A DNA stretch of 27,009 bases from a virus: the IMG/VR virus record IMGVR_UViG_3300037882_002936, positions 1-27,009 of that record; one strand, written 5' to 3'. Positions 1,242 to 10,216 of this stretch are shown here, piece after piece. The position numbers were made by a program, and so were the translations under genes. Each line of letters starts with the position of its first letter. The first letter of the stretch is position 1. The notes under the pieces were generated by a model. The model saw only the letters and a program-made list of their open reading frames with translations, had not been told where the DNA came from and searched no databases.

Positions 1242-1676
1242 TCAATCTTCATCAAGATTGTGAGACTGCGGAACAGATTTTAAAAGCCTACCTTGTCGGA
1301 TTGGTTTCTTACCTCTATAAGAAGAGGTTGGTGGAACCTTGGCTTTTGTTAAATTCTCCTGATATTGTTTTAATTTCATTGTATAAAGATAGAAAAACAT
1401 TCCAGCGTAATTCTCCAAATCCTTCAATGTATCTTCAACTGTTTCAACATAATCTTCAAAAAGCTTATCGGATTTAAAAATATGTTCTAGTCTATCCCAC
1501 TTTCTTTTCAAATTAAGGAATGCACCATTAAGTCCGTCCTTTTGCCAAGAGCCTCCATAGCCAGCATCCTTTTGCTCAAATAACTCTAATCTTTGTTCAA
1601 AATCTCGTTGCATAAATTCAGCAACTTTCTCTGAATCGTATTCCTTCAATCCTTCCCAATAATTAATTTTTTCCAT
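1242..1676 (-). CDS. Nmad1/DUF1599-like nucleotide-modification-associated protein
   Basis: This is a 144-aa all-helical protein. Residues 37-63 contain DAGYGGSW, then GAFLNLKRKWDRLE, and residues 82-96 contain EDTLKDLENYAGMFF. This order (YG.SW, GAF.....RKWDR, then D.L.DL.NYA) matches what I know of the DUF1599 family, also called nucleotide modification associated domain 1. That all-alpha family is related in style to MazG-type NTP pyrophosphatases and is found next to base-modification genes in phages. Its reaction is not established. The last 35 residues are basic and probably disordered. The start overlaps the end of the upstream HD-domain gene by 14 nt, so the two are translated from one message. 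The identification rests on motif recognition. Confidence 0.55.
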   Translation of the reverse strand: MEKINYWEGLKEYDSEKVAEFMQRDFEQRLELFEQKDAGYGGSWQKDGLNGAFLNLKRKWDRLEHIFKSDKLFEDYVETVEDTLKDLENYAGMFFYLYTMKLKQYQENLTKAKVPPTSSYRGKKPIRQGRLLKSVPQSHNLDED

Positions 1677-2283
1677 AATTATTTGTCTTTTGCTGTACTT
1701 GCTGTAATATATTTAATATTTGTTCTTTTTTATTAGGGTAAATATGTATCAACTGATTGCAAGACCTGTTAATTAATTCCAAACATTTGTTCATATGAAC
1801 TTCAAAGAACTTATTACCACTCATAACCTCCGTCAAGCAATAATTCAATAACGAAAGATTGTCTGCTAATTTAACAATGCTTTTGACGGTGGATACAGGC
1901 TCCTGTGAACTGATCTGCATAAGGTGATCACCTACCTCTGTTTCGACTACAAAAGTTCTGGAGGCCGCATGGGTGACGTAATCCTCAATAGAAGAACGAA
2001 CAACATCACCATTTACTTGATTATACTTAAAGGGATGCATAACATCACCCGTCCACATCTCATCTAAGTCATGATACATCGCGTATTCAATACAATCAAG
2101 TCTTGCACTTCGATCAAAACCTAATTCCACACAAATAAGATTCGTTAACATAGTCACCCACCAAGAATGATGTGGGAGGGATATTGGACTATTTCTAGGT
2201 GTCCCGTTCCAATGTTGGATGTTGGAAAAGTGTTGGAAGTCGGGGGAAAACACGACATCCACAACATTCGCTATTTTATTCAT
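1663..2283 (-). CDS. HD-domain 5'-nucleotidase/dNTPase, YfbR/DatZ-like
   Basis: This 206-aa HD-superfamily metal-dependent phosphohydrolase has the HD signature HDLDEMWTGDVMHPFKY at residues 71-87. It aligns without gaps to the E. coli YfbR segment HDASEVLTGDLPTPVKY, keeping His71, Asp72, Glu75 and Asp80. His39 (in PHHSWW) and Asp144 (in VKLADN) supply the remaining metal ligands. YfbR removes phosphate from dNMPs. Related phage enzymes (DatZ) remove the triphosphate from dATP in phages that use diaminopurine, but no PurZ is visible here. Plausible roles are shaping the host dNTP pool or clearing a canonical nucleotide so a modified one can replace it. The start codon overlaps the upstream stop (ATGA), and the leader ATAAACAAATG lacks a Shine-Dalgarno sequence. 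The substrate cannot be read from sequence. Confidence 0.8.
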   Translation of the reverse strand: MNKIANVVDVVFSPDFQHFSNIQHWNGTPRNSPISLPHHSWWVTMLTNLICVELGFDRSARLDCIEYAMYHDLDEMWTGDVMHPFKYNQVNGDVVRSSIEDYVTHAASRTFVVETEVGDHLMQISSQEPVSTVKSIVKLADNLSLLNYCLTEVMSGNKFFEVHMNKCLELINRSCNQLIHIYPNKKEQILNILQQVQQKTNNYGKN

Positions 2284-2652: not shown

Positions 2653-2939
2653 ATTACTAAAACATTCCCAACTCCCTGATCACCTTGGCTCAGTTTGTAA
2701 AAAAATTTTCCTTTATAGGCAGATAATTCAAATTCTTCAATTTTTAAAGAAAAATTTTTAAAATCCAAAGCCAAATCTTCGACAGACATTTTTAATATTT
2801 CTTCTTTTGTTTTATGCAAGACTATTGAAAATTGATTAAAAAAGAATTCAACTATTATACAAATTTCATTTTCACTATAACTTTGTAAATCTTTTATGAT
2901 TTTTTCGTTTAAAAAATCAAAAAATTCTTGTCTAGTCAT
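2649..2939 (-). CDS. Hypothetical protein, 96 aa, flanked by direct repeats
   Basis: I do not recognise this 96-aa protein. It is mostly helical, rich in Phe, Lys and Glu, with hydrophobic heptad-like spacing in residues 1-70 and no membrane segment. Its ATG (2937-2939) overlaps the last codons and stop of the DNA polymerase gene by 8 nt, giving the junction ATGACTAG. Its coding region is bounded almost exactly by a perfect 20-bp direct repeat (2936-2955 and 2633-2652). The upstream copy is the polymerase 3' end plus this gene's ATG; the downstream copy holds this gene's stop and the next gene's ATG. That arrangement fits a late insertion into an older polymerase/118-aa-gene junction. I can propose no function. 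Confidence 0.72.
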   Translation of the reverse strand: MTRQEFFDFLNEKIIKDLQSYSENEICIIVEFFFNQFSIVLHKTKEEILKMSVEDLALDFKNFSLKIEEFELSAYKGKFFYKLSQGDQGVGNVLVI

Positions 2940-5900
2940 CTTCTTTGAGTTTTAATATTTTATCATGGAATGAAAGAAAATTGCCACTTCCTTCTTTTAT
3001 CTCGTTCTTTAAAGTCAATGCTATCAACGTTTTTGACTTCTTGTATTGCTGTATATCTTCTTCGTATTGATCCAACGCTTCTTCCCACATAAAGAATCGA
3101 ATAAAATCCAAATTACTTTTAACCACTACTTTTGCGTATTTCTTCCCTTTCTTCGTTGTATCCATAAATACTGCATCAATTATCCCTGCAATAGCTATGA
3201 TACCACTTTCATCCATCTCTTCAATCTCCTGGAAGGTTTTATACCTAGTGGCTAGTTTCTTATCATACTGCCTTATGATCGGAAAAAAATCAATGTATCC
3301 TAAAACGGAAATTCTTTGCTGCTCTATCTGCCAAAAGTAATTGCTCGTTTTTGCGAACTCTGAATTGAATTCTTTTGGAAGACCTCCTTTTGTTTTGGTT
3401 AGCTCGTGTAATTTTAAAAGTAATTCCCGTCTACGAAAAAGAGAAGATTGAGTTATATTATAACAAGAATCAAATGCCCCCGCAATAACTAAACTTTCCA
3501 TTATCTGCTTTCCTGCTCTCTTGCCTCTCATTCGATCAAAGAAATCTTCAATGTCTTCAAACCTTCCGTTTTCCTTTCTTTCCTTTAATATTACTGAAGA
3601 GGATTTGTCAGCAAGGTTCTTTATTTTCAATATAGACCAATAGATTGTGTTTGTCTTTGGATCCATTCTAAAAGTCTTATCTGCTTCGTTGATGTCGGGT
3701 GGAACTACCTTTATGTCTTCAAAGTATCTTTCTTTCTCTGAAAGGTAAAGGATTGTTTCTTCTTCGTTCTTTGCGTACTGTAGGGCTGTTGTCCAAAATA
3801 CGAGAGGGTAGTGACACTTGATATATTGACCCCAATAACCCATTATGGAATAAGCAGCCGCGTGAGCTTTGTTATAGCCATAGCCAGAGAATGCCATAAG
3901 CTTATTCCAAATCTTTATTGCCTCATCTTTCTTACAACCATTTTTTATTGCTCCTTCTATGAATTTTTGCTCGAAGGTAAGCATTTTTTCTTTATTGAAT
4001 TTTTTCATAATATTACGCACGGTATCCGACTCAACAAGCGTCATGCCGCCAAGAACAACCATTGCCTTCATAATCTGCTCTTGATAAACATACAGACCAT
4101 TTGTCATTTCAGTTACTTCCTTCAGCTTAAAGTCATACTCTGGCTCTTTCTTTCCATGCTTAATATGTCCGAAATCTACATGCGCGTTGCTACTCATTGG
4201 CCCAGGTCTGAATAAAGCATTCATAGCAATTAAATCCTCAATATTGTCAGGCTCAACGAATTTGCAATAAGCCTTCATTCCATGGGTATGAAATTGAAAC
4301 ACTCCTTCACACACACCTCTCTGGAATAAATCAAAAGTGGCAGGGTCATTAAGAGGTATTTTTAATAAATCCAACTTCTCCCCATAGTATTTTTTGATAA
4401 GTTTAGTCGAATTGTCGTATTCATCCAATTGTTTTAATCCCAAAATATCTTCTTTCAGGAAGCCTGCAATATCCATCATAACTCCTTCCCACTCCGATAC
4501 AATTACTGTCTTGTCAGTATCTGCATCAAAAAGCTTTCTACAAGGCATCCAATCCCAAACTTGCATCCTATTGCCATTCTCATCGTGAGTAGGCGTAATT
4601 ACAATAGCAGAGGCATGTATGGAGGCTGCTTTTGGCTGCTTCATTGTGTAATTAATGCAATTTATTATCTCTGGCTTTTCTTGTAAGAATTTCTTCAATA
4701 TTGGTTTATCGACAGCAAACTTAAAAATATCCTCCCATTCGTATTTTAGTTTATTGGGTATTTGACCAGTAATATCATTGATTGTTTTAAAAGCTAGTCC
4801 CCTAACGTTCCCGTAATCCTTTAACCCTCCTTTTAACTTCATTGTGGTATATGCCCCAATATAAGTCACTTGGTCTTTGCCCCATCTGGATATTAAATAC
4901 TCTTTAACCTCACGCCTCCTTGTGGCCATATAATCGGCGTCAATATCGGGCATGGAATCTGGTCTTTTGCGTTTAACTACTTCGATTGATTGTATTTTTT
5001 CTCCTTCAATCAATTCCCCCTTCCTGTATTCCTCTATATTCTTGCCATCCACATCTTCTCCTGCTTTCTTCTCAAATTGCTTAGTCTTGGTCTTAATGTT
5101 TATAAACTCCTCAGGCATGGTTCTAGTCTCGTTCAAGAAACGTTCAAAAAGAAGTCCATGTTCAATGGGATCAATATCAATAATTCCCAATAAGAAAGCT
5201 ACCAAACAACCACCTACTGAACCTCTCCCTAATCCATATTTTATCTTTTCTTCATTGCAAAATTGAACCACATCCCACAATATTAAAAAATAGTCAATAA
5301 TATCAGCGCCTACAATGATCTTATTTTCTGTATTTAACCTTTCCCTGTAAAGTTTTTCCTTCCCTTTCGGCACCTTCTTTTTAAATCCTATCTCCAACTC
5401 GCTGAAATAAATATCCTTCGCATCCCTCCCATCCAACGATACAAATTTAGGAATTTTACTATCTCCAGTCTGAATAGAGAAGTTGCAACTATTCGATATT
5501 TTCTTGTTATTTTCTACACAAAGGTCGTAAAATTCTTCATGACTAAGACCATTTGTCAATTCCCCATCTTCTTCTAAAAATCCTGCCAGCTGAGTAGCTA
5601 ACTCATCGAACCCCTTAAAATATTGATCATCCGAATGCTGTTGAGATTGCTTTCCGATCATATTAGTCCAAAGCTTGTATTTGCTATGCTCTGGATCGAT
5701 ATAGAAAGAATCTTGTAAGAGAACTGGAGGAATTACATTGGAGAAGTTGTTGGCGTATTTTTTAAGATTATTCAGATGTTCGTTGTCAGTCTGTGCAGAA
5801 TTATATTCCACAGGGTCTACTTGCTGATACAATTCCGCTAAATTCTTCCTATCTCTCCCAGCCAATTTTAAGACTTCTAGCTTACTTATTCCTTTATCGG

Positions 5901-6588
5901 TAAGGTAAGAGAGGGAAGAAAGGACGAAAGTTAAGCCCTCAGCGTTTTTATAGGCTTGCTCAATAAATATTTTCCCGTCGTCGCTCTTAATATTTTTAAG
6001 GTAATGTAGTTTTAGCAAATTCTTCCAGCCTGTTTCGTTCTGAACGTAAATTTTAACATCGTAATCCAATTCCAATTCACCCACTATATAGGTGAAGTTG
6101 TACGTAACTCCAAGGATTGACTTTATACCCTTCTTTGCGCAAGCAAGCTGGAAGGGGAGGGTTCCAGCTAGAGTGTTCTTATCGCAGATCGCCAAAGTCT
6201 GCATTTGTAGATAAGAAGCCTTTTTGAGGTAAGAGTTAAAAGAGCCTGTACCGTTTAGAAGTTCGTAGATGGTGTGAATACCTAAGTGAGTGTATTCTCT
6301 TTTACGTACTTTCTTTGTGTACTTTATTTCCTCAAATTCCGCCTTTAAAAATCCTTTCTCGTTGAAAGATTCTTCGTTGAATTTGGTCTTATAATAGATT
6401 CCACCCCAAAGAAAGGCTATGTATGAAATATCATATTCTCTGAATATTTTAAGTTCTTCCTTATTAAAGGAGAATTTCAAATCAGAGTCTTTTAAGATTA
6501 CCCCAGACTGATCGGTAGTCTTAAAAAGATAAAGAGCATCCTGGTATTCCCAGAGATGCTCATCAACACTTTTAAATCCTTTTATCAT
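2932..6588 (-). CDS. dnaE: DNA polymerase III alpha subunit (DnaE-type, family C) with degenerate PHP domain
   Basis: This 1218-aa protein is a full-length replicative polymerase of bacterial type, unusual in a phage. Residues 1-95 are an extra N-terminal region without a recognised match. The PHP domain starts near residue 100 (HLGIHTIYE at 101-109, ICDKNTLAG at 134-142). Palm motifs are GLGRGSVGG (451-459) and PDIDADY (546-552), with catalytic Asp547 and Asp549, then ALFRPGPM (790-797) and Asp804 as the probable third aspartate. Fingers and tandem HhH segments follow (SGYGYNKAHAAAYS). A C-terminal OB domain (about 1110-1200) ends in a charged tail. An insertion of about 55 residues (488-545) separates the two palm motifs. 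The PHP metal ligands are partly replaced, so intrinsic proofreading is doubtful, and I see no separate epsilon-like exonuclease in the window. The leader AAAAACAAATG has no Shine-Dalgarno sequence. Confidence 0.96.
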   Translation of the reverse strand: MIKGFKSVDEHLWEYQDALYLFKTTDQSGVILKDSDLKFSFNKEELKIFREYDISYIAFLWGGIYYKTKFNEESFNEKGFLKAEFEEIKYTKKVRKREYTHLGIHTIYELLNGTGSFNSYLKKASYLQMQTLAICDKNTLAGTLPFQLACAKKGIKSILGVTYNFTYIVGELELDYDVKIYVQNETGWKNLLKLHYLKNIKSDDGKIFIEQAYKNAEGLTFVLSSLSYLTDKGISKLEVLKLAGRDRKNLAELYQQVDPVEYNSAQTDNEHLNNLKKYANNFSNVIPPVLLQDSFYIDPEHSKYKLWTNMIGKQSQQHSDDQYFKGFDELATQLAGFLEEDGELTNGLSHEEFYDLCVENNKKISNSCNFSIQTGDSKIPKFVSLDGRDAKDIYFSELEIGFKKKVPKGKEKLYRERLNTENKIIVGADIIDYFLILWDVVQFCNEEKIKYGLGRGSVGGCLVAFLLGIIDIDPIEHGLLFERFLNETRTMPEEFINIKTKTKQFEKKAGEDVDGKNIEEYRKGELIEGEKIQSIEVVKRKRPDSMPDIDADYMATRRREVKEYLISRWGKDQVTYIGAYTTMKLKGGLKDYGNVRGLAFKTINDITGQIPNKLKYEWEDIFKFAVDKPILKKFLQEKPEIINCINYTMKQPKAASIHASAIVITPTHDENGNRMQVWDWMPCRKLFDADTDKTVIVSEWEGVMMDIAGFLKEDILGLKQLDEYDNSTKLIKKYYGEKLDLLKIPLNDPATFDLFQRGVCEGVFQFHTHGMKAYCKFVEPDNIEDLIAMNALFRPGPMSSNAHVDFGHIKHGKKEPEYDFKLKEVTEMTNGLYVYQEQIMKAMVVLGGMTLVESDTVRNIMKKFNKEKMLTFEQKFIEGAIKNGCKKDEAIKIWNKLMAFSGYGYNKAHAAAYSIMGYWGQYIKCHYPLVFWTTALQYAKNEEETILYLSEKERYFEDIKVVPPDINEADKTFRMDPKTNTIYWSILKIKNLADKSSSVILKERKENGRFEDIEDFFDRMRGKRAGKQIMESLVIAGAFDSCYNITQSSLFRRRELLLKLHELTKTKGGLPKEFNSEFAKTSNYFWQIEQQRISVLGYIDFFPIIRQYDKKLATRYKTFQEIEEMDESGIIAIAGIIDAVFMDTTKKGKKYAKVVVKSNLDFIRFFMWEEALDQYEEDIQQYKKSKTLIALTLKNEIKEGSGNFLSFHDKILKLKEDD
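2936..2955 (-). repeat. 20-bp direct repeat, copy 1 (3' end of the polymerase gene)
   Basis: Minus-strand TTAAAACTCAAAGAAGATGA encodes the final residues LKLKEDD of the DnaE-like polymerase and includes the ATG of the 96-aa gene. It is identical to the copy at 2633-2652; start-to-start spacing is 303 bp. In an AT-rich genome an unselected 20-base match at such a short distance and at the same functional position is unlikely to be chance. Confidence 0.9.
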
Positions 6589-6599
6589 TTGTTTTTGGC

Positions 6600-7757
6600 T
6601 TATAGATAACCAATGTATTGTTTTACTTCTTCATCGCAACCGTATTCTCTCAAAATCGAAGGTAAAACGGTTTTATCCCTTAGTCTTGAGGCGAAGAAAT
6701 TTACAGTCAATAGGGAAAAATCAGTATAACTTTGTTTGTAATGTTCTGAAAGAGAAATAAGATTTTTTAAATTGTAAATGTTTTGTGATTCTTTATTCTC
6801 ATATGGCTGCTCTAAACTTTTAGTCTCTATGTAAAAAAGACAAGAGGCAACCATAAAAATAAATCCATTGTTTATATAAGGTGGGTGTTTTAAAATATTG
6901 ATAAAAGTCGCACAGTCAGCACCCTTTTCAATAAAGCTAAAATAATGCTTTAAAGTAGAATCAACAAGATTCAAATTGGCTAATGGCTCTAATTGAAAAT
7001 CAAATTTAATATCAATAGGCTGGCAAAATTCATAAATAGATTCAAACCCACTGAACATTCCTTCCCAATCATTATAATTCTTCTCAATCCCTTCGACCAA
7101 TGGATTATCAAGATAGATATGTAAATCGTTGCTGAAATGTGTCTGATGTCCGTATTCGATACCTAAACAATTTGCAATCAATTTACCAATAAAAGAGAAT
7201 TGATAAACATTAGTGGGTAATCCCCAATGAAGATCATTAGAACGATTGAAAATTGAAAATCTTAATTTATCTTCTTCATCGATGCAAACGGCTATTGTAT
7301 CATTACAAGGAATGTCTTTAACACCGCTTCCTAAATCAAGTCTTGCGTCCCAAATTTGCATAACAACTCTTCTGGTTGAAGAGTCTGAAGATAGCATTTC
7401 AATTGCAGAATTGAATTGATCTTCACCAAAGGCGACTCTTAATCTATGCCCATAAGGAGCGTGAAAAATTCTTCCATCATCTGAATAATCTGCCATCCTA
7501 CTATTAAATGGAATCAATGGTGCCACATCTTGTCTACCTAACCAAATCCAAACAGCTTCCACGAAAAGAAAGAAAGGATTAATACGACGACCCCAACCAC
7601 CAACTAAATTCCTTTCAGGCTCCGATAGTCTAGTCACAAACTCCCTTACCTTTTTTACCTTCCCATTGCGTGATTCGCTTTCCGTACCATTGGATAAAAC
7701 CCACGAATTGATTCTGGGGTAAATTGTATTAAAATCGCTTGAAGAGATATTATTCAT
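6600..7757 (-). CDS. Thymidylate synthase-family protein (TS or dUMP hydroxymethylase) with C-terminal extension
   Basis: This 385-aa protein has its first 240 residues in the ThyA fold family. Recognisable elements are Glu67 in FVEAVW, PYGHRLR (101-107), the phosphate-binding Arg pair in STRRVVMQIWD (127-137), nucleophile Cys151 in DIPCND, NRSNDLHWGLPTNV (171-184) with Arg172/Ser173 and Asn183, and SNDLHIYLDN (209-218), whose His213 and Tyr215 match the sugar-binding pair of TS. The asparagine favours a uracil over a cytosine substrate. The usual TS active-site tryptophans (IWDEW in E. coli) seem absent: the corresponding stretch reads FNSRMAD. The last 140 residues are a helical extension not found in ThyA. 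The enzyme could therefore make dTMP or a 5-hydroxymethyl-dUMP precursor. PanD lies 11 nt upstream and the polymerase 11 nt downstream. Confidence 0.88.
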   Translation of the reverse strand: MNNISSSDFNTIYPRINSWVLSNGTESESRNGKVKKVREFVTRLSEPERNLVGGWGRRINPFFLFVEAVWIWLGRQDVAPLIPFNSRMADYSDDGRIFHAPYGHRLRVAFGEDQFNSAIEMLSSDSSTRRVVMQIWDARLDLGSGVKDIPCNDTIAVCIDEEDKLRFSIFNRSNDLHWGLPTNVYQFSFIGKLIANCLGIEYGHQTHFSNDLHIYLDNPLVEGIEKNYNDWEGMFSGFESIYEFCQPIDIKFDFQLEPLANLNLVDSTLKHYFSFIEKGADCATFINILKHPPYINNGFIFMVASCLFYIETKSLEQPYENKESQNIYNLKNLISLSEHYKQSYTDFSLLTVNFFASRLRDKTVLPSILREYGCDEEVKQYIGYL

Positions 7758-7768
7758 AGAGATAAGTT

Positions 7769-8236
7769 TTATTTCTTTATAAAATTTTGATCATCTTCAC
7801 CCAGTGCGTTAAAGATAGTCAGAACACCTTCATCATTTAACATTACAACTCTTGGACAGTGATGTTTCACATACCATTCTTCATTTGACATATACTTTTC
7901 ACAAGTGTTACCTCTGTAATCCTCAACTGTCCTGTCATAACACTCATCTAAATTAACCAAATGAAAATTCATTATAATAATCTCATCACCCACTTGAACC
8001 TGTCTGGCTGCACTTCCATTCAAGCAAATCCTTCTGCTGCCCCTTTTTCCTGGTATGACGTAAGTTTCAAATCTAGCCCCGTTGTTATTATTAACAATAA
8101 AAACCTTTTGCCATCTAATCAGATCAGCGGTTTCCATTATTTCACTATCAATTGTAATACTTCCTACATAATTCAAGTTCGCTTCTGTAACCTTGACATT
8201 ATGTATCTTTGAATGCAGAATTTCTAATGATGTCAT
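7769..8236 (-). CDS. panD: Aspartate 1-decarboxylase (pyruvoyl enzyme, PanD)
   Basis: PanD decarboxylates L-aspartate to beta-alanine, normally for pantothenate/CoA synthesis, using a pyruvoyl group made by self-cleavage. The match is strong along the whole family core with a constant +1 offset from E. coli numbering: Lys10 in [13 protein letters not shown], Tyr23, the cleavage pair Gly25-Ser26 in YVGSITID, Arg55-Phe56 and Thr58-Tyr59 in [15 protein letters not shown], and Asn73 in LNGSAAR. Every residue needed for processing and catalysis is present. The protein has 155 residues instead of about 126. The extra length is an insert of about 25 residues (100-124, with Cys112) before the usual end strand, here [13 protein letters not shown]. 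It lies 1 nt downstream of the amidoligase gene and 11 nt upstream of the TS-like gene, in one transcription unit. A phage copy is very unusual. Confidence 0.94.
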
Positions 8237-8237
8237 A

Positions 8238-9107
8238 TTATTTGTTTTTTCTAGTTGTTGGAGATTTAACGCGAGTTTTTTGATATGCCTCTTCTAATTC
8301 TGGAAGATAAGGGTCACGGAATGGAAATTCATCACGTCGGAAAGCCTTTTTTAAGGTATTCTGAAACACTACATTTTTTTGATCTAAAAGCATATTGAAA
8401 AATGCAAATTCACAAAACATAGCTATTGACGTGAAATGATCTTCATTCTTCACATTGTAGAAATTACGAAACTCAATCGTTCCCGTCTTGAACATCTGAT
8501 GGACGTTCACATACTGACGTTGAAAATTAGCAAAATGATAGTTTCCTTTTTCAGTAAGAAAAAAAGCGTTCTGGAAGTCTTTTACCGTTTTAGCTTTCAT
8601 CAACGCTTCATGTTTTCTCTCAGCGATTGGTAATTCTTGATGATGTCCCCAAAAAGAATTCAAATAGTTTTCCTGCTTTATAAAATTTGTTTCCCCCATG
8701 GTGAGGTCAAGTATTTCTTTAGCATTCTCATAAAAAAACTTTTGCGCTTTTTTAAGGAATTTTAACTTAGCTTGCTCACTCCATTCTTCCCATCCAACAA
8801 TACCAATATGGAACTGCGTGTTACACCTGTAATTAGATGTTGCGCCATTCTCTTCCAAAACTCTGAATACGCTTTTAGCTAAATTTATTGCACCTTCCAT
8901 TGTGTCAATGGGGGGTGTATTTATTTCACCTCCCCAATCATGCGCAGCTCCTAAGCCAGAGTCCACAGCTAATCCATTGCTATTGATTAGTGTGATCTCT
9001 CTCTTGGAAAAAGAACAGTGAAGAGGTAATTGAGGTAGTAATACCGATCTTTGGGCATCAATAAACTCAATTTCCCAACCGTATGTTGTTTTTGTTATTT
9101 TTTCCAT
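8238..9107 (-). CDS. Putative amidoligase (COOH-NH2 ligase of the glutamine synthetase/GCS-like fold)
   Basis: This 289-aa protein fits the phage-associated amidoligase group described by Aravind and co-workers, predicted ATP-dependent enzymes joining a carboxylate to an amine. Diagnostic segments are YGWEIEF (9-15, Glu12 and Glu14), [10 protein letters not shown] (57-66, Glu61), CNTQFHIGI (95-103, His100), RQYVNVH (197-203), and TGTIEFRNF (208-216, Glu212, Arg214). These correspond to the acidic metal-binding and arginine nucleotide-binding positions of the fold. I chose the ATG at 9107. A longer frame begins with TTG at 9134, but that codon lies inside the terminator stem. PanD follows after 1 nt, so its product beta-alanine is an obvious candidate amine donor (inference). 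The substrates are unknown. I see no gamma-glutamyl cyclotransferase or amidotransferase partner nearby. Confidence 0.78.
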
Positions 9108-9118
9108 AAAAAATTGTG

Positions 9119-9157
9119 AAAAAAATGGACTCAAAATTTTAGCCTTGAGTCCATTTT
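9119..9157 (-). terminator. Strong rho-independent terminator after the acidic-linker protein gene
   Basis: A perfect 13-bp inverted repeat (9122-9134 and 9145-9157, arm AAAATGGACTCAA) has a 10-nt loop. On the minus strand it is followed directly by a run of seven T (9119-9125). It starts 21 nt after the stop of the 345-aa gene and ends just 11 nt before the amidoligase ATG, so it separates the two units or attenuates read-through. Confidence 0.88.
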
Positions 9158-9178: not shown

Positions 9179-10216
9179 TTACTTCTTCTTTGCGGTCTTG
9201 CCTTTAGCTGGCACTTCTGCTTTTTTAACAGATTTCTTTACAACCACTGGCGCTTCATCCTCATCCTCTTCTTCTTCATCCTCAACCTCTGGGGCTTCAT
9301 AAACAGTGGATTTTTTAACTTTAGCTGTTTCAACAGCCTTTACTGATCCACCTTTAGCATTACGCATTTTTTCCATATTCTCACTCAGAGCCTTTTCAGT
9401 CTTTGATGCTTTCGACGAAAGGACACCTTTGATCTCTTTGAGTATCGCAAGACATTCTTTCACTGTAAGGCCAAGTGCGAACCAAAGATTTGGAGAGAAA
9501 CGAGACAATGGATGCTCTTCCAACCACTCTTCAGGAAGATGTTTCTCACATTCTTCTTTACCCTTAAAAGCATTGAAGTAGAGATTGCCAATGAATTTAT
9601 CGCCTTTGTTCTTGAAGTAATCCAACGACACAACACCCTTGCCGCTTTTCTTAATTGTGACACCTCTTGTGAGAGCATTGTGAACATATCCTTCGCTTTC
9701 TGGGAAGAGTGTAAGAACAGCTTTGAATGGGGATACATCCATTTTCTCAGTAGCTGATTCTCTCTTGGCGATCTTTTCTTTAGCAGCTGAAGAAGTTGCT
9801 ACTTTTTTAATCATTTCTTCCTCTTCTTCTTCGTCATCTTCTTCTTCCTCCTCAACCACTACCGCTTTCTTCTTAGATGCTGATTTTGCAGGCTTTTCTT
9901 CCACTGGTTTCTTCTTAGCGGATTTTTTCACTACAATTTCCTCCTCATCGTCTTCCTCTTCCTCATCTTCTTCCTCTTCTTCTTCAACGATTACAGGAGT
10001 TTTTTTCTTTGCTGCTGGTTTTTCTTCAACCTTAGCCTTACCTTTTTTAGCAGGTGCCTCAACTTCAATCTCCAGTTGATTGCAGAGGTCGATTATATCA
10101 TCCTCCGTGAGACCATCATTCTCAAGATCCACATATGAGAAGTACTTGCCTTCAACCAAGGCATCAGCGTATATATTGCCTTGCCATTTTTCCCCAGTGG
10201 CGCTTTTCTTTGCCAT
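9179..10216 (-). CDS. Acidic/basic linker-rich protein with central globular domain, unknown function
   Basis: I do not recognise the globular parts of this 345-aa protein. Residues 1-52 form a small N-terminal segment. Residues 53-155 are low complexity, alternating Lys/Ala/Pro-rich stretches with acidic runs (78-93 and 122-134). Residues 156-270 are a probable folded domain (PFKAVLTLFPESEG through LWFALGLTVKECLAILKEI). The C-terminus returns to linker with another acidic run (about 310-321) and ends in Lys-rich sequence. The linker style (KK.AKKKPVEEKPAK then a Glu/Asp run) closely resembles the tail of the ssDNA-binding-like protein at 1-1191, suggesting shared partners or recombination. 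It follows the sigma-like gene by 39 nt and has its own strong terminator, consistent with high expression. A nucleic-acid-binding or scaffold role is a guess. Confidence 0.85.
   Translation of the reverse strand: MAKKSATGEKWQGNIYADALVEGKYFSYVDLENDGLTEDDIIDLCNQLEIEVEAPAKKGKAKVEEKPAAKKKTPVIVEEEEEEDEEEEDDEEEIVVKKSAKKKPVEEKPAKSASKKKAVVVEEEEEDDEEEEEEMIKKVATSSAAKEKIAKRESATEKMDVSPFKAVLTLFPESEGYVHNALTRGVTIKKSGKGVVSLDYFKNKGDKFIGNLYFNAFKGKEECEKHLPEEWLEEHPLSRFSPNLWFALGLTVKECLAILKEIKGVLSSKASKTEKALSENMEKMRNAKGGSVKAVETAKVKKSTVYEAPEVEDEEEEDEDEAPVVVKKSVKKAEVPAKGKTAKKK

Follow-up and report, generated by a model that had tools for sequence, protein, structure and literature searches.

Thymidine hypermodification and amide ligases that act on DNA bases are each already known. 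Gamma-glutamylcysteine synthetase (GCS) and glutamine synthetase (GS) activate the carboxylate of a free amino acid, and ligases of the GS/GCS fold usually activate a free small amino acid. The Amidoligase_2 family of phages and bacteria was reportedly described by Iyer et al. in 2009. In vitro, hypermodified thymidines derived from 5-hmdU guard phage DNA against type II restriction (PMC6449724). The CmoA-CmoX-CmoY system makes 5-glycyl-carboxymethyl-dC (Nat Commun 2025, PMC12783734).

Here, we analyse a virus record of 27,009 bases, a fragment, whose whole length is referred to as the window. It encodes an amidoligase beside the aspartate decarboxylase PanD and a thymidylate-synthase-like (TS-like) protein. 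We hypothesize that the amidoligase performs a tailoring step in thymidine hypermodification and that PanD supplies its co-substrate, beta-alanine, a proposal that we regard as evenly poised between right and wrong.

Amidoligase of the window

The amidoligase gene is located on the minus strand of the window (8238..9107), with an ATG at 9107 and the end of its stop codon at 8238, as given in the first-pass annotation. The product is composed of 289 residues, to which an alternative TTG start at 9134 would add nine. The assignment is based on the open reading frame, Pfam, PHROG, the predicted structure and conserved residues. The PF12224 (Amidoligase_2) profile matches the protein with 29.8 bits (cut-off 22) and an E-value of 7e-7, which places it in the family, and phrog_2443 ("amidoligase enzyme") matches with an E-value of 6e-8. 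The sequence carries the motif TIEFR and further amidoligase motifs, which bears out the first-pass annotation, where the motifs had been called clear.

Structure prediction, proposed there as a check of the fold, agrees with it. The AlphaFold model of the amidoligase, built with nine sequences, has a mean pLDDT of 82.5 and a pTM of 0.84. The top structure matches (VIA Z about 9-10) all belong to the GS/GCS superfamily and include YbdK (1r8g/1tt4), GshF (3ln7/3ln6), GshA and glutamine synthetases. The identity to YbdK, GCS and GS is about 10-13% in aligned positions, and a search of solved structures by sequence with the ligase profile returned chance matches only. Residues G10, E12, E14, D17, G59, E61 and H100 are invariant in 57/57 close relatives, R197 and E212 are conserved in 56/57, and R214 in 55/57. 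The window amidoligase has all of them, so that neither of the two refuting conditions named in the first-pass annotation, a different fold and a loss of the ATP-binding residues, holds; the conserved residues are equated with those of GS/GCS active sites through motifs and not through a residue-level superposition. The window gene is thus a real amidoligase of the GS/GCS fold. Its product is predicted to form amide bonds on modified thymine in DNA at the expense of ATP.

PanD encoded next to the amidoligase

The start of the PanD gene (7769..8236, minus strand) is separated from the amidoligase stop by one base. PanD is a pyruvoyl aspartate 1-decarboxylase that makes beta-alanine, as identified from Pfam, a PDB match and residues. 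The PF02261 profile matches it with 143 bits (cut-off 25), and PDB entry 3oug with an E-value of 2e-23. The active site is kept, with K10, the self-cleavage site G25-S26, R55, Y59 and N73, and a C-terminal insert of about 24 residues is present. The neighbor of the amidoligase is therefore a genuine, intact PanD, as the first-pass annotation had anticipated in naming a decarboxylase as the partner.

Some phage PanDs carry a histidine in place of the catalytic Arg54 (NAAHWETY or NGKHWETY), namely those at L004:5980-6375, L035:7986-8357, L052:7917-8327 and L174:8962-9351, so that their substrate may not be aspartate. The PanDs linked to hypermodification genes retain the arginine at position 54.

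TS-like protein and the rest of the window

The minus-strand genes of the amidoligase (9107-8238), PanD (8236-7769), TS-like protein (7757-6600) and DNA polymerase III alpha (6588-2932) follow one another with gaps of 1, 11 and 11 bases. The TS-like protein (6600..7757, minus strand) is assigned to the dUMP hydroxymethylase (5-hmdU synthase) clade by Pfam, PHROG and a phylogenetic tree. Its catalytic cysteine is followed by asparagine (PCN), whereas true synthases have PCH, and it has a C-terminal extension. The nearest proteins are SPO1 gp29, which is recorded as a dUMP hydroxymethylase, and those of the Pseudomonas Epa5 type. In a tree that included T4-type td proteins, Bacillus ThyA and two synthases of Bacteroidota phages, the window protein lies inside the 5-hmdU group with SPO1 gp29, apart from true thymidylate synthases (support 100/100). 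This position points to the production of 5-hydroxymethyl-dUMP, with which thymidine hypermodification begins. The pair of amidoligase and PanD gets its meaning from this adjacent gene of the dUMP hydroxymethylase clade.

The 1218-residue DNA polymerase III alpha (2932..6588, minus strand) is next in the same gene run, the order of which is kept in a 110 kb relative, G038. It is closest to polymerases of Chryseobacterium, Cellulophaga and Bacteroides phages (about 33-36% identity), and since these are its nearest counterparts, the host of the window phage is likely a member of the Bacteroidota. In MA9V-3, phiST and Larrie, named phages whose polymerases are close to it, the stretches read contain no match to PanD, the amidoligase or HMUDK. 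Near its polymerase, Chryseobacterium phage MA9V-3 (L009:15869-20581) encodes FolE, QueE and QueD-like proteins and a thymidylate synthase of the true type, so the modules for DNA modification differ among Bacteroidota phages of this kind.

Downstream of the polymerase gene, the window encodes a YfbR-like HD 5'-deoxynucleotidase (1663..2283, minus strand), assigned by Pfam, and a small protein matching phrog_1485 (1242..1676, minus strand). An HD gene of the YfbR-like type adjoins the 5-hmdU synthase gene in many hypermodification clusters, and homologs of the phrog_1485 protein are encoded near the 5-hmdU synthase in clusters L016, L208-L210, L216 and L220. Two further proteins (9179-10216 and 1-1191) contain long acidic and lysine-rich tracts of low complexity. 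They have counterparts at matching places in G038 (3e-16 and 1e-44), and may bind DNA as part of the replication module. The 27 kb fragment contains no kinase, HMUDK, amino acid:DNA transferase (AADT) or flavin lyase gene.

Linkage of the ligase to thymidine hypermodification genes

Scans of IMG/VR with the single sequences of the amidoligase and DNA polymerase III gave no matches, and an alignment-based profile search of genome contigs found no relative. Two alignment-based IMG/VR scans collected 83 amidoligase loci, and genes were counted within the retrieved flanks. AADT is present in 57 of the 83 loci and a 5-hmdU-kinase-like gene in 52, and a class II glutamine amidotransferase in 42. HMUDK_hel and a TS-like gene occur in 18/83 each, and flavin lyase in 10/83. 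Pfam supports the assignments of the transferase (PF18724 ADDT), the flavin protein (DAO), the kinase (HMUD2, in L024) and the amidotransferase. After removal of identical rows, 47/55 of the closer ligase sequences are accompanied by at least one of transferase, kinase, HMUDK and TS; the same genes accompany none of ten distant amidoligases. A gene resembling low-molecular-weight protein-tyrosine-phosphatases is found with the ligase in 52/83 loci (L003, L013, L016, L019 and 48 others).

The only ligase relative found directly in named phage records is that of phage Simon, with 26% identity. It stands in a row with genes for a low-molecular-weight phosphatase, a kinase, HMUDK_hel (3.8e-42), Nmad5, a TS-like protein and an HD protein. 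Because of the linkage to transferase, kinase, HMUDK and TS across the ligase loci, the window ligase belongs to a subfamily linked to 5-hmdU hypermodification genes, and a role of the amidoligase in 5-hmdU hypermodification is highly probable. The first-pass annotation had described the ligase as lacking the usual partners. This description does not extend to its closest relatives, which have constant partners in the 5-hmdU hypermodification genes, about half of them together with the class II glutamine amidotransferase.

Other gene neighborhoods were seen among the relatives. In Vibrio phage 2.275.O, an amidoligase relative (L008:8866-9978) directly precedes queF-like, vitamin-transporter, queuosine-biosynthesis and GTP cyclohydrolase genes of the 7-deazaguanine pathway, which suggests a further possible role of the ligase family, in the modification of DNA with deazaguanine. 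At L018:5909-8836 and in L095, the flavin lyase of the amidoligase cluster is replaced by a radical SAM protein and a PLP-dependent (PALP) enzyme, which implies that other chemistries on thymine exist.

PanD paired with the ligase in other phages

We looked for PanD in the ligase-locus records and with two scans for PanD itself. It accompanies the ligase in three further phages, L015, L024 and G038 (3/83 relatives), so the co-occurrence with panD that the first-pass annotation had suggested looking for does exist; no polyamine genes were noticed. In L015 (73 kb record, GC 67%), the ligase, flavin lyase and PanD genes are contiguous and are followed by those of the transferase, kinases, HMUDK and TS. 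In L024 (140 kb record, GC 33%), one run contains PanD, amidotransferase, transferase (AADT), kinase and ligase, and HMUDK and an intein-bearing TS are close to it; the glutamine amidotransferase is present and the flavin lyase absent. The TS-like gene of L024 (12832-14904) is apparently split by the intein exactly at the catalytic cysteine (DKPC...HNC).

G038 is the closest relative, with a 36% identical ligase. Its genome (110 kb, GC about 39%) is complete, with a 112-base terminal repeat, and has ligase, PanD, TS, polymerase and HD genes in the order of the window. A second block, far away at 60-66 kb on the contig, encodes a flavin lyase (DAO), ADDT (PF18724), two P-loop kinases and HMUDK_hel (9.6e-54). 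The match to the AADT family is modest (28.7 bits, cut-off 26.2), and the FAD protein matches PDB entry 8z2o with an E-value of 6e-19. Because this block carries the kinases, HMUDK_hel, transferase and flavin lyase, the pieces missing from the window exist in a complete relative. By analogy with G038, the ligase of which is only 36% identical, the window phage would carry the remaining hypermodification genes too, probably likewise split into two distant blocks.

In the ligase tree, the PanD-linked members occupy three separate places, and the well-supported branches cannot be reconciled with fewer than three changes. This favors a repeated pairing of PanD with the ligase, gain and loss being indistinguishable on the tree. 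In the PanD tree, only G038 and L015 are sisters (98/93), which leaves one versus several origins unresolved. As a control, we used HMUDK loci of up to 21 kb, beyond which the genomes may hold further genes of interest; among the matches listed, 78 of the 79 other than G038 lack a ligase, and in none is PanD nearby. PanD is close to 3/83 ligase-bearing clusters and 0/78 of the listed 5-hmdU-kinase (HMUDK) clusters without ligase (Fisher p = 0.13; p = 0.07 when the window is added), a difference that is suggestive but by itself not significant.

Several candidate PanDs were rejected. The PanD of L002/L020 (58% identical) is at a prophage edge beside host panD, and in the Acinetobacter "phage" MD-2021a (L006), genes of the host chromosome surround panD. 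In L023, PanD is about 19 kb from a distant amidoligase, with no hypermodification genes around. The PanD of L023 (6756-8384) adjoins genes assigned by eye as an ATP-grasp-like ligase and LicD-like proteins, and this may be another beta-alanine-using pair, outside DNA modification. The panD records CAKLQH020000007.1, AFYI01000001.1 and the OR84xxxx/OR85xxxx series of phage collections resemble host chromosome, which CAKLQH020000007.1 is by gene content, the others being suspected. Such host-like "phage" records holding panD are a trap for counts of auxiliary genes.

Proposed mechanism and alternatives

We hypothesize that the TS-like enzyme, judged by its clade, would make 5-hydroxymethyl-dUMP, and that 5-hmdU would then be incorporated in DNA. 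There it would be activated by a 5-hmdU DNA kinase, receive an amino acid, probably glycine, from an amino acid:DNA transferase, and be trimmed to 5-aminomethyl-dU by a flavin-dependent lyase. Genes for these three reactions are present in the complete G038 genome and not in the window fragment. PanD would convert aspartate to beta-alanine, and the amidoligase would use ATP to activate the beta-alanine carboxylate as an acyl phosphate and join it to the base amine. The product would be 5-(beta-alanyl-aminomethyl)-dU, likely shielding the phage DNA from host nucleases.

The gene order of Epa5-type phages is informative for the last step. The Epa5 AADT matches PDB entry 8z2m ("Glycinyltransferase") and the Epa5 FAD protein matches 8z2o ("Flavin-dependent lyase"), and the FAD protein gene is followed by those of a GNAT acetyltransferase, a kinase, HMUDK and TS. 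In Simon, L013, L016 and L019, the ligase occupies the GNAT position. The simplest reading is that the amine of 5-aminomethyl-dU is acylated, as by an acetyltransferase, and in PanD-bearing phages the acyl group would be beta-alanine. The first-pass annotation had noted that the pair points to a different substrate; since the phage brings an enzyme making beta-alanine, that substrate can be named, and we consider beta-alanine likely. The direction of the bond and the product 5-(beta-alanyl-aminomethyl)-dU are tentative. The same holds, at somewhat less than an even chance, for the full proposal of a beta-amino acid on phage DNA, in which PanD-made beta-alanine is ligated by a GS/GCS-fold enzyme to the amine of a 5-hmdU-derived thymine, the product being the one named or a close isomer and the pair having been assembled more than once. 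With PanD in only 3/83 relatives, most members of the ligase group must use another substrate.

It is also possible, if rather unlikely, that the order is reversed: the transferase would put beta-alanine or glycine on thymine, and the amidoligase would amidate the free carboxylate with ammonia from the glutamine amidotransferase, or with beta-alanine, so that the base would bear beta-alaninamide or glycyl-beta-alanine. The calculated [M+H]+ of the nucleoside is 329.1456 both for beta-alanyl-aminomethyl-dU and for its beta-alaninamide isomer, 258.1084 for the aminomethyl precursor, 387.1510 for the glycyl-beta-alanine amide and 330.1296 for carboxyethyl-aminomethyl-dU. The class II amidotransferase encoded beside the ligase in 42/83 loci fits this order, as does L024, where an amidotransferase without flavin lyase accompanies PanD and suits a bond different from the one proposed. 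A precedent is CmoY, a characterised phage DNA amide ligase that activates the base carboxyl and adds glycine (PMC12783734). However, a flavin lyase homolog, expected to remove the carboxylate, is encoded by L015 and by G038, the closest relative. Moreover, as is generally known, ligases of the GS/GCS fold usually activate the free small amino acid.

PanD might instead be an independent auxiliary metabolic gene that raises host pantothenate and CoA, and merely adjoin a hypermodification ligase that uses ammonia or some common amino acid. In IMG/VR, about 60 further viral PanD loci lack hypermodification neighbors; PanD alone is thus no predictor of the pathway, and phages carry it for other reasons too. 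Yet panB and panC (PF02548, PF02569) are absent from all four records searched, the window fragment, G038, G003 and G008, in which control profiles did match, and this speaks against a pantothenate role. Four phages of three separate ligase lineages have PanD adjoining the ligase or near it, compared with about 0.002 joint cases expected among 83 from contig frequency, a rough figure as the scans miss members. The one-base spacing in the window and the contiguity in L015 also make the auxiliary role improbable. Finally, an older proposal, cited in PMC10580990, gives other phage amidoligases a part in modifying the cell wall or in making metabolites, and the window enzyme could by this token make a small peptide or modify the cell wall or a protein, unrelated to DNA. 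That proposal concerns other amidoligases; the close relatives here are tied to 5-hmdU genes (47/55), and the window gene run includes an enzyme of the 5-hmdU synthase clade, so that such a role is very improbable.

Returning to the preferred reading, in which beta-alanine is ligated to a thymine-derived amine, the phage probably camouflages its DNA by attaching beta-alanine to it. If true, this would be a chemistry of DNA bases without an earlier report in the literature surveyed, and GS/GCS-fold ligases would enter the set of DNA-tailoring enzymes. Phage amidoligases of a large group, whose members are otherwise labelled just "putative amidoligase", would gain a definite function. The reading also predicts which metagenome phages carry acylated or amidated thymine, which is relevant to restriction, other DNA-sensing defences and the sequencing of phage DNA. 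In the literature surveyed, we found no GS/GCS-fold ligase combined with a beta-alanine supply of its own, a search that did not cover the key hypermodification papers of 2018 and 2022 (Lee et al.), where the amidoligase may be mentioned.

Comparison with known systems

The window PanD resembles its bacterial homologs in being a pyruvoyl aspartate 1-decarboxylase with all catalytic residues; unlike them, it is phage-encoded, has an extended C-terminal tail and comes with no detected remainder of the pantothenate pathway. The ligase shares its fold and the conserved E-x-E, E, H, R and E-x-R residues with YbdK, GCS and GS, from which it differs in predicted substrate. It has the Pfam family, motifs and fold of the phage and bacterial Amidoligase_2 proteins (PF12224); what sets its subfamily apart from the family at large is the connection with 5-hmdU hypermodification genes, which we did not find described in the literature surveyed.

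Like the CmoA-CmoX-CmoY system, the window phage is predicted to use an ATP-dependent amide ligase that joins an amino acid to a base of phage DNA. CmoY is a homolog of asparagine synthetase and acts on carboxymethyl-cytosine, whereas the window ligase, which matches only Amidoligase_2 in Pfam, has the GS/GCS fold, belongs in all likelihood to a thymine pathway and has its own beta-alanine supply. The closest resemblance in gene content is to the 5-hmdU clusters of the Pseudomonas M6 and Epa5/PaMx11 types and Salmonella ViI, with which relatives of the window phage share the synthase-clade enzyme, kinase and HMUDK_hel, AADT, flavin lyase and HD protein, and with these the post-replicative tailoring of thymine. 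In contrast to those clusters, the G038 genes, and probably also those of the window phage, are arranged in two distant blocks, and the tailoring would be performed by a GS/GCS-fold amidoligase with a dedicated PanD, not by GNAT, PLP or radical-SAM enzymes.
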